NCBI GenBank assembly: GCA_017506865.1
Contig: JAFCMP010000045.1
Location: forward strand, 186,001 to 250,000
Direction of reading: 5' to 3'
Origin: Tribonema minus
Lineage: Eukaryota; Sar; Xanthophyceae; Tribonematales; Tribonemataceae
DNA length: 64,000 bases
Numbering within the stretch: the first letter of the stretch is position 1; each line of letters opens with the position of its first letter. Positions 9,333 to 63,693 of the stretch are shown piece by piece. The translations under genes and the position numbers were made by a program. Below the pieces are notes generated by a model. It was not told the origin of the DNA. It did not search any database and saw nothing but the letters and a program-made list of their open reading frames with translations.

Positions 9333-12300
9333 CTAGCCCATCCAGGAGGGCGTGCGGAAGGACAGGCCTGCATACGTAGCCTGCAAGTGGTACAGCGGCG
9401 CACGGGGGGGGGGGGTGTCAGCACCGGCACGTTAGAGGGTGCGGCTGGTGCAGCGTGTTGTTGACATCAGGCTGCTGACAGGAGCTGATTGAAGTTGGAG
9501 CAAAGCGTATTTCTCGAAGGTCAATATACGTTGTACCCCTTCGAGTTTGTTCTAGATGCCTTGGCCTCAAGCAGAAATTGCTTCTTGGGGTCCTCGCTGA
9601 CAACATGACCATTGAGAGCTGAGCCACTACCAGTGAAATTTGCCTCAACCCTACCAGTACAATCTCCTCCAAACTCGAATCCTACCCCTAACCCCACAGT
9701 TGGTGCTGAGTGCCTGCTAGTCCGCAGCGCCATTGACAATACTGCTTCAATTCTGACGCTTGCCCTTGGCTCAAATTTAATCCTCATTTAAACCTGAAGC
9801 TGGCGTCACACAAGCGCTGTCCGTTGGTGCTCAGCGTGCCATGCTGCCCTTCCAAAACCTTGCTTAAAAGAGTTTCACCCCCCCCCCCCCCCCCCATGCA
9901 AACCGTACTAATAGCTTCCTTTTCAACGCACATGGCCTAGCAATCACACACTGGTTTCCGTGTCCAAGGCAGAGAGAAGGCCGAGCTTGAGCGCTGCCGC
10001 CACTGCTTCGCTGAAAGGTCTTTGACCTTCACAAGGACAAGTGCACCATCTGAGTTTTAACTTTATTGGTGGGAGCGTCCACCACTTTATTGGTGGGAGC
10101 GTCCACCATTAACTTCACCTAGATTGTACCTCAAGTTGATGACGAGAATGGGCAGCAAACTCAGGTACCTTGCTGCCGACCTCCTCCTCAATCAGCAGCT
10201 GACCACAACGTTGACCGTCACATTCGCCTAGAAGGCGCTTCAGAATGAGAATGATGACGAGAACGGGCCAAAAACTGCATGTACCTTATTGCCGAGCTCC
10301 TCGATGCGCAGCAGCTGACCATTATATTGCCGTCAAATTCACCTCAATTGTACTTCAAGTTGACAACGAGAACGGGTAGAAAATTCAAGCACACTACCTT
10401 GCTGCCAAGCTCCTCTTCGATGCGCAGCAGCTGGTTGTACTTGGCCAGGCGCTCCGACCGGCACGGCGCGCCCGTCTTGATCTGGCCCGTGCAGAGGCCG
10501 ACCGCCTGCGCCATAAACACGGATTGTTGGTGAGCAATCACGGATTGTTGGTGAGCAATCGGCACTTGGTCAGGCAAAAATCATTGGAAATGTGGGTACA
10601 CACGAATTGTTTGTGAGTAATCGGCACTTGGTAAGGCAGGAATGATATGGAACGGTAGATGAACACGGATTGTTTGTGAGCAATTGACACTTGATGAGGC
10701 AAGGATCATACACCAAATGTAGATTCGTATCCGTAGTGACGGACGGCCTGCGCCATTAACGCACACTCCTCATCACAAGCGATGAAAATCATGAGACAGC
10801 AAGCGTCAGCAAAGGAGATCACGAACATCCAGCTCATCTCCGACTGGACCAGGCCTGTGCAGACGCTGCCCGCCTGACCGTGCAGCATCATTGCCGCGCA
10901 CATGCGCAACGCCACGTCTACACAACACACACAAAACGCGACGGCGCATGCACGAGACGAGAGCGAGCCTCGTTTCATGCGCCCCGTGCGTTAATGCGCG
11001 ACATCATGTGCACCAAAGAGTGCTGAGCACTGATGCACAGGAGTGGTGACGCGGCGCAGGCAATGCGCGCGCGCCGCGCGCGCACACCTGGAGGCGGGGT
11101 GAGAGGTACATGCAAACTTTTGCGCGGAGTGCCGTGCGCGCCAACGCTTGTCGCCAGCTAGGTTTTCCCCAACAGCAAGAGTTGAAGACATGATCAGAAT
11201 TTGCTCGTCATGTCTGTAATGCAGCGCTGCTGTCCTCTGTCCAGCGCCACGCTTTGCGGTTTGCCAGGGCATGTGAGCTAGGGCTAGAGAAAAACTAGGG
11301 TTACAGGTGAAGAAACATAAGTAGGGTTTACTCACCAGGTCTGCAATGTAGCAGTCCGCCGTCTCTCGCGCCACGCTTTGCAGCAAGAAAATGCGAGCTA
11401 GGTCTGTATGCAACTAGGCTTCCAGGAGTAGCACGGGTTAGGGTTAGGTGAAGGTTAGGGTTAGGGTTAGAACCACAACCAGGGTTTACTCACCAGGTCT
11501 GCAATGTAGCAGTCCTCCGTCTCGCGCCACGCTTTGCGGTTAGCGAGGGCATGTGAGCTAGGGCTAGAGCTGCAACTAGGGTTCTACCCCTAGGGCATGT
11601 GAGCTAGAGCTAGAGATACAACTACGGTTCTAGGGTTATAAACACAAATTAGGGTTTACTCACCAGGTCTGCGATGTAGCAGTCCTCCGTCTCTCCTGAG
11701 CGGTGGCTGGTCATCACGCCCCAGCCGTTCTGCTTGGACATCTTGACGGCCATGATGGACTCTGAGACAGTGCCAATCTGCGCACATGCACATGGCATAC
11801 GTTTTACGTAGATGAGTGAACAAGTGAATGAATGTGTGGATTCACATATTAGCATGTCCACCCATTCTGCTTGGAAATCTTGACGGCCATGATGGACTCC
11901 CAGACGGAGCCGATCTGCGCACATATGGATGGAGCCGATCTGCGCACATATGGATGAGTGAACAATGAGCGAATTCATGAGCTTGCATGTCAACCCGTTC
12001 TGCTGGGACATCTTGACGGCCATGATGGACTCCGAGACGGACCCAATCTGCGCGCATGTGTGTGGCATGGATGAGTGAACAGGTGCATGAATTGAGCGAA
12101 TTCATGAACCTGCATGTCCACCCATTCTGCTTGGGCACGTCAATGAAGCTGCAACTGTGATGGAATCCGAGACGGAGCCGATCTGCGCACATGCTCGTGG
12201 CATGGATGCGTGAACAACTGGATGAAGAGCATATTCATGAGTCATCAGTCCGCCCAAGAGCAAATTCATGAATTTGCATGTCCACCCAATCCGTGTTCAC

Positions 12301-63693: not shown

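Follow-up and report, generated by a model that had tools for sequence, protein, structure and literature searches.

Long introns are usually explained by transposons. Gao and Lynch reportedly described in 2009 how internal gene duplication creates introns, with new introns and domain repeats as the outcome, and tandem duplications in plants, sometimes with filler, are said to follow paired nicks or break repair (reported by Vaughn and Bennetzen in 2014 and by Schiml et al. in 2016). The plant break-repair duplications are not known to be confined to exon–intron junctions. In a potato gene, a duplication across an intron–exon boundary created an intron (PMC4974935). Introners, which are dispersed mobile families of algae and other protists, also create introns (PMC9860276), and direct repeats of 4-30 bp near splice sites have been tied by their authors to DNA breaks and repair (PMC11782384). 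In the open-licence literature, subscription papers being mostly outside the scope of the search, no report of genome-wide, junction-centred intron growth was found.

In the genome of Tribonema minus (158 Mb in 554 contigs), to which all comparisons were confined, segments straddling exon–intron junctions have been duplicated recurrently, mostly by independent copying and with a bias toward the junctions, and the copies, which we term exon-edge echoes, decay neutrally. A donor echo consists of the end of the upstream exon followed by GT, and an acceptor echo of the end of the intron followed by the start of the downstream exon. Echoes resemble the potato duplication (PMC4974935) in being short, crossing a boundary and inheriting their splice signals from the parent junction. 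However, in the potato case a new intron arose in a single event, whereas here existing introns were enlarged by repeated copies, which are found at one edge in three across the 15 genes sampled and are absent from 4 of these genes. Introners (PMC9860276), like echoes, remodel introns on a large scale, and they do so in algae and other protists; unlike introners, echoes are local, and the single filler sequence that was searched had no second match in the genome. In the 58 introns of the first sample described below, echoes were not similar sequences dispersed in the introns of many genes, by which introners are recognized. Like the repeats of PMC11782384 they are direct repeats at intron borders, but those measure 4-30 bp, whereas the matches described here are mostly some 50-130 bp long, each spans a single junction, and the copies are located within the intron.

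The window (the whole stretch of 64,000 nt that was analysed, C45:186001-250000, with a GC content of 56%) contains an enolase gene on the minus strand (10398..25245), in which 15 coding exons were placed with a purpose-written spliced aligner and yeast enolase as the query (64% identity). All 14 of the placed introns are in phase 0, and they are of the GT-AG type except for one GC-AG intron. The 18S rRNA of the genome was located as well and resembles a stramenopile sequence; Amorphochlora was rejected as the source of the DNA, its GC content being 27% (PMC12730881). Exon-only probes of at most 60 nt from each exon edge were compared with the adjoining intron, and a score of at least 30 was taken as an echo. 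By this rule, 8 of the 28 enolase edges, in 6 of the 14 introns, have echoes. Edges of non-adjacent enolase exons scored at most 26 against the same introns, with one exception at 62, where the match came from the opposite end of one and the same short exon. In the printed alignments, the exon end with GT, or AG with the exon start, recurs within the neighbouring intron. On the donor side of exon 3 (24016-23954), echoes occupy 23672..23987 (minus strand, as for all enolase features), with copies at 23878-23815 and 23711-23672, the first of which is identical to the exon over its entire exon part (34/34). A single copy (22958-22875) constitutes the acceptor-edge echo of exon 4 (22781-22680) at 22749..22958, and three copies form the donor-edge echoes of exon 6 (20224-20153) at 19543..20184. 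Exon 11 (15180-15067) is flanked by arrays on both sides: the acceptor-edge array (15150..16003) has two exon-bearing copies, and the donor-edge array (14377..15132) has four further copies of the exon end with GT. Two copies precede exon 12 (13574-13473) in its acceptor-edge array (13522..14056). Exon 14 (11777-11664) again has arrays at both edges, with three copies on the acceptor side (11721..12240) and two on the donor side (11266..11695), the latter with a telomere-like repeat between them. Two donor-edge copies of exon 15 (10505-10398), at 10111..10433, were left uncounted, the last exon being less certain.

CFAP61 lies on the plus strand of the window. Its identity is backed by PDB and Pfam matches, and the frame-wise searches of these databases yielded just a few of its exons. 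Five exons were placed, with boundaries set by eye, and echoes were found at 3 of the 10 testable edges. An acceptor-edge echo is associated with the exon that starts near 36522 (36264..36548; Pfam CFAP61_N match, edge score 44). The exon from 37701 to about 37818 has a donor-edge array with several copies (37765..38511; Pfam CFAP61_N match and self-hits, edge score 86). The third feature, the donor-edge array of exon 57496-57671 (57541..58107), is built of 210-bp units that are about 94% identical, each of which carries the end of that exon. The statement of an earlier note on this DNA that a fragment of the exon edge is repeated with its splice site in the adjoining intron is therefore borne out in both genes. 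Its wording that this holds in almost every intron of enolase and CFAP61 was too strong in view of these counts, and in place of the at least 25 edges that it had claimed, 12 were established in the window, i.e. the eight counted enolase edges, the exon 15 donor and the three CFAP61 edges.

The analysis was extended to other genes. The first sample comprised 58 counted introns in 11 genes, namely enolase, alpha-, beta- and gamma-tubulin, V-ATPase B, pyruvate kinase (PK), three actin-related proteins (ARPs) and two SAHH genes; a second sample of four PGK genes with 25 introns was modelled later and treated by the same rules, which gave a pooled set of 83 introns and 166 exon edges in 15 genes. 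Exons that looked weak by eye were left out of the counts (V-ATPase B exons 1-4 and 13, PK exons 1-8, 15 and 16, ARP-B exons 4-8, ARP-C exons 1, 5 and 6 and SAHH2 exons 1-8), as were the middle SAHH1 intron, two enolase exons (one of 6 nt and the last one), and weak PGK pieces together with their neighbouring introns. Models were also built for ARP loci on C97 and C80, which stayed outside the counts. Phase 0 was strongly favoured (70 of the 83 counted introns), with gamma-tubulin being mixed (6/11). Two controls were used, in which each edge was compared either with the reverse complement of its intron or with length-matched introns of other genes.

In the pooled set, echoes were present at 54 of 166 edges and in 40 of 83 introns, against 0/166 for the reverse complement and 6/1992 for introns of other genes, and chance is thereby excluded as their source. 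In the first sample, 22 donor and 20 acceptor edges had an echo, in 31 of 58 introns, and the two controls gave 0/116 and 3/1392. The PGK sample was weaker: echoes were present at 12 of its 50 edges, in 9 of its 25 introns, with 0/50 and 3/600 in the controls. Donor and acceptor sides were equal (27/83 each). Since the copies are individually diverged and the genes with echoes are spread over ten contigs, an assembly artefact is unlikely. Echoes were found in 40 of the 71 introns of at least 400 bp and in none of the 12 shorter ones. Four of the 15 genes were free of echoes (alpha-tubulin, beta-tubulin, SAHH1 and PGK-D), and all seven introns of alpha- and beta-tubulin are shorter than 400 bp. 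Less reliable models, of two ARPs and of two divergent members of the tubulin family, supplied seven extra introns that stand outside the totals; four of these had an echo, all of them among the five introns of at least 400 bp.

Two observations on individual gene families can be added. Alpha-tubulin, beta-tubulin and SAHH1 (L013, L014, L025) have few and short introns, of 234-307 bp in the counted set, unlike gamma-tubulin. The three PGK paralogs with long introns (C13, C113, C468; L033-L038) appear to share several intron positions, and they differ strongly in the number of echoes (8/14, 2/18 and 2/14 edges, the last two being paralogs B and C; paralog D had 0/4). Echoes common to PGK paralogs could serve to date duplication events.

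In the 45 edge families of the first sample, the exon part of the repeated unit measured 8-117 nt, the period ranged from 81 to 373 nt with a median of 144, and there were 1-6 copies per edge, in agreement with the 1-5 copies and periods of about 50-220 bp that had been noted in the window. Over 46 edges, the best matched stretch covered a median of 42.5 nt on the exon side of the junction and 48 nt on the intron side, and the exon share of the matched segment departed from a uniform distribution (KS p 6e-5). At 31 of the 46 edges, the nearest copy was separated from the original by 28 nt or more without a match, so that these are direct duplications with filler between the copies; at the other 15, the units abutted or overlapped. 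Inspection of 12 edges revealed that the gap was mostly without a match, and that in a few cases it matched again at a different offset; some of the filler may therefore be an indel-rich, decayed copy. A mobile origin of the filler was considered, and against it, the only filler searched genome-wide (114 nt) matched itself alone. Between introns of different genes (58 introns of the first sample, E 1e-4), the common sequences were telomere-like and simple repeats and one 98-bp element. This dispersed element lies at 22569-22666 of the window (minus strand, enolase intron 4), has 40 or more scored genomic matches including itself, at 84-100% identity, and is related to pieces found in V-ATPase B and pyruvate kinase introns.

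Echoes are neutral relics, with the behaviour of dead sequence. Their exon part had diverged by about 9% (.088) in the first sample and their intron part by 19% (.189), a twofold difference that is expected if both intron copies drift and only one of the exon copies does. Over 109 copies at 54 edges, differences between the exon parts and the exon affected 7.9% of first, 7.0% of second and 15.9% of third codon positions. When the changes were polarized at edges with at least two copies, those on the exon lineage were distributed over the codon positions as 2/1/22, as is typical of coding sequence, while changes private to a copy had no codon-position pattern and comprised 66 synonymous, 149 nonsynonymous and 3 stop changes, which fits the neutral fractions of.287/.689/.025. 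Among 39 indels in echoes, 34 were not multiples of three. Echoes also do not look like tandem or mutually exclusive exon duplications, as what is copied is one exon edge of 8-117 nt with a neutral codon pattern. At gamma-tubulin exon 6, the nearest copy has no changes at codon positions 1 and 2 and several at position 3, which at first hinted at coding constraint; the pooled polarized test, which fits neutrality, overruled this hint, and the polarized codon changes likewise ruled out a coding or alternative-exon function of echoes in general. The splice dinucleotides are kept in 72 of 77 echoes (GT in 40 of 42 donors, AG in 32 of 35 acceptors), as would be expected if selection maintained echoes because they serve as alternative exon ends or as splice sites held in reserve or acting as decoys. 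However, this retention is only slightly above the prediction from neighbouring sites (p 0.027), an excess to which we give little weight, and both the neutral exon parts and the frame-breaking indels argue against selection of this kind, which we consider highly improbable.

Local duplications are strongly biased toward splice junctions. Each intron was compared with itself and with its two exons, and a duplication family was classed as an edge family if it included at least 6 nt of an exon edge. Pooled, 62 of 75 families contained an exon edge, where about 15 were expected. The first sample contributed 45 of 52 (expected 11.2 if single duplications are placed, 12.9 if whole arrays are) and the PGK sample 17 of 23 (expected 3.9), with probabilities under uniform placement of about 1e-24 and 1e-9. 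The remaining families, which are interior or overlap the exon by less than 6 nt (7/52 and 6/23), count against the explanation we favour, as do the low counts in PGK paralogs B and C and the four genes without echoes, PGK-D among them.

A concentration at edges could also be produced by detection, if tandem duplications occurred everywhere in genes, those within exons were purged, and those at edges were easier to detect with the exon copy fixed. The lower divergence of exon parts than of intron parts does make edge copies detectable for longer. However, with the exons removed from the comparison, 33 of 40 families in the first sample still started or ended within 40 nt of a junction, against 7.1 expected, and 10 of 20 in the PGK sample, against 2.6; the bias thus does not come from exon conservation alone. 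Moreover, the ends of coding sequences beside the UTR, whose coding side is equally constrained and which undergo no splicing, yielded echoes in 0 of 19 cases compared with 54 of 166 splice edges (Fisher p 0.001), where some of these ends belong to weak terminal exons (the 3′ ends of ARP-C, enolase and PGK) and the start codon was taken as the farthest in-frame ATG. Together with the limited extent of copy-from-copy descent described below, these results largely refute the explanation by detection, and we regard it as very unlikely.

Another way to obtain the bias would be for breaks or duplications to target whole exons, e.g. through exon chromatin, with the edge-straddling events surviving because splicing hides them. 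This would account for the edge bias, the preference for the live copy and the missing interior events without invoking splicing in the process itself. Yet the copied segments are centred on the junction, with the medians given above and without a shift into the exon, and a copy made at the 12 stop-codon ends among the 19 coding-sequence ends would land in the 3′ UTR, where none was found, albeit in a small sample with some weak terminal exons. We therefore hold targeting of whole exons to be unlikely, though it retains some weight, and favour duplication centred on the junction itself.

Relationships among copies indicated which sequence had served as the template. Where two copies of one edge had 15 or more sites in common, the echo–echo distance at codon positions 1 and 2 was 0.89 of the summed echo–exon distances, where 1 corresponds to a pure star. 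Most copies were thus derived one by one from the live junction and not from an older copy, although the copies are about 90% identical to the real edge and mostly keep GT or AG. In 26 cases, compared with 15.6 by chance, both members of a pair differed from the exon at a site, and in 18 of the 26 they had the same base, an excess that may reflect some copy-from-copy descent or a few amino-acid changes of the exon. At 24 of the 29 edges with several copies, the nearest copy was less diverged than the farthest, and a rank permutation of the distance–divergence trend reached the observed value in 0 of 20000 trials. A layered-order test based on third-position or synonymous states common to some of the copies failed (2 nested versus 16 non-nested cases, p 0.91); homoplasy or occasional conversion may be behind this.

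These data bear on ordinary minisatellite growth, in which slippage or unequal exchange would expand arrays that start at exon edges by accident. In favour of such growth, units abut or overlap head-to-tail at 15 of the 46 edges, and in gamma-tubulin intron 4 the copies share derived changes, in line with the overall excess of sites changed in both copies. In a minisatellite, however, copies descend from neighbouring copies, whereas the relations found here are mostly star-like, with only a modest both-changed excess, and the star-like divergence taken together with the rank of the nearest copy argues against slippage or exchange within arrays. We consider minisatellite growth to be quite unlikely as the general process. 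The earlier note's remark that in several arrays the copies nearest the exon are the least diverged is supported; its proposal that slippage or unequal exchange is the main process is unsupported in light of the distance ratio and of the filler present at 31 of 46 edges. The check it had called for, a comparison of intronic matches to adjacent exon ends with matches to other exons, came out in favour of echoes, and its view that intron growth which multiplies splice sites is widespread is supported, as other genes have echoes too and arrays make up a large part of their long introns. Like the internal duplications that Gao and Lynch are reported to have described, echoes are local, within-gene duplications that carry splice sites; the concentration on live junctions and the star-like copying are not known from that work.

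Taken together, we think it probable that recurrent duplication of junction-straddling segments is what makes long introns grow, with break repair near live junctions as the likely source. According to the working model, a segment of roughly 40-50 nt of the exon end and a similar length of intron would be copied a short way into the intron, at donors and acceptors alike. New copies would mostly be made from the live junction and placed next to it, with older ones coming to lie deeper, an order that appears in outline in the divergence ranks. The original, outermost splice site is presumably still used, as protein homology suggests, and if so the copy is removed along with the intron. The duplications probably stem from DNA breaks in or close to live junctions, followed by end joining with long fill-in and filler. 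Telomere-unit repeats are break-repair scars in other organisms, and at least two telomere units were found in 20 of the 83 introns, compared with 0-1 per shuffle in ten mononucleotide shuffles, which supports break repair. The plant break-repair duplications are reportedly also direct, tens to about a hundred bp long and sometimes provided with filler. Candidate reasons for the preference for live junctions would be breakage coupled to transcription or splicing, selection, or exon-specific chromatin in combination with a filter on which events survive. Chemistry that is special to one splice site is disfavoured by the equal numbers of donor and acceptor echoes.

The results suggest that DNA is duplicated preferentially at gene junctions that are in use. 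A more far-reaching possibility is a heritable duplication process that recognizes the junction by its use and not by its sequence, given that near-identical dead copies about 100 bases away are seldom copied, while the live junction is duplicated repeatedly; we put this forward tentatively and think it rather doubtful. If it were true, germline structural mutation would be tied to splicing or co-transcriptional events, the length of an intron would be a record of the use of its junctions, and each echo would be a fossil of an exon edge. If the bias toward live junctions holds genome-wide, it would suggest a mutational process coupled to transcription or splicing. In the 48 introns of at least 400 bp in the first sample, arrays that reach an exon edge make up 40% of the sequence, and limited checks for a mobile origin gave no sign of one. 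Since echoes are neutral, lie in a rough order of age and mostly derive from a constrained template, the rate, age and target preference of the duplications are directly measurable. Gene finders may be misled in such genomes, where numerous seeming splice sites are dead copies.

Several further features of the window were recorded. A p32 match (Pfam MAM33) is located at 2193-2321 on the minus strand, which puts this gene to the left of the coordinates the earlier note had given. A segment of roughly 290 bp occurs in three copies, 98-99% identical, at 4996-6157, where no gene was recognized. Interstitial TTAGGG-type repeats of at least two units are found at positions 11435, 11453, 17036, 20058, 36939, 36951, 41821, 41838, 49737, 52057, 57939, 58336, 58554, 58566 and 59837. 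Long open frames of 306 and 383 aa are present on the minus strand at 26519-29196, with no Pfam match at E 0.01, and the 383-aa frame contains repeated cysteine/histidine-rich units that match 54- and 162-bp repeats in the DNA.
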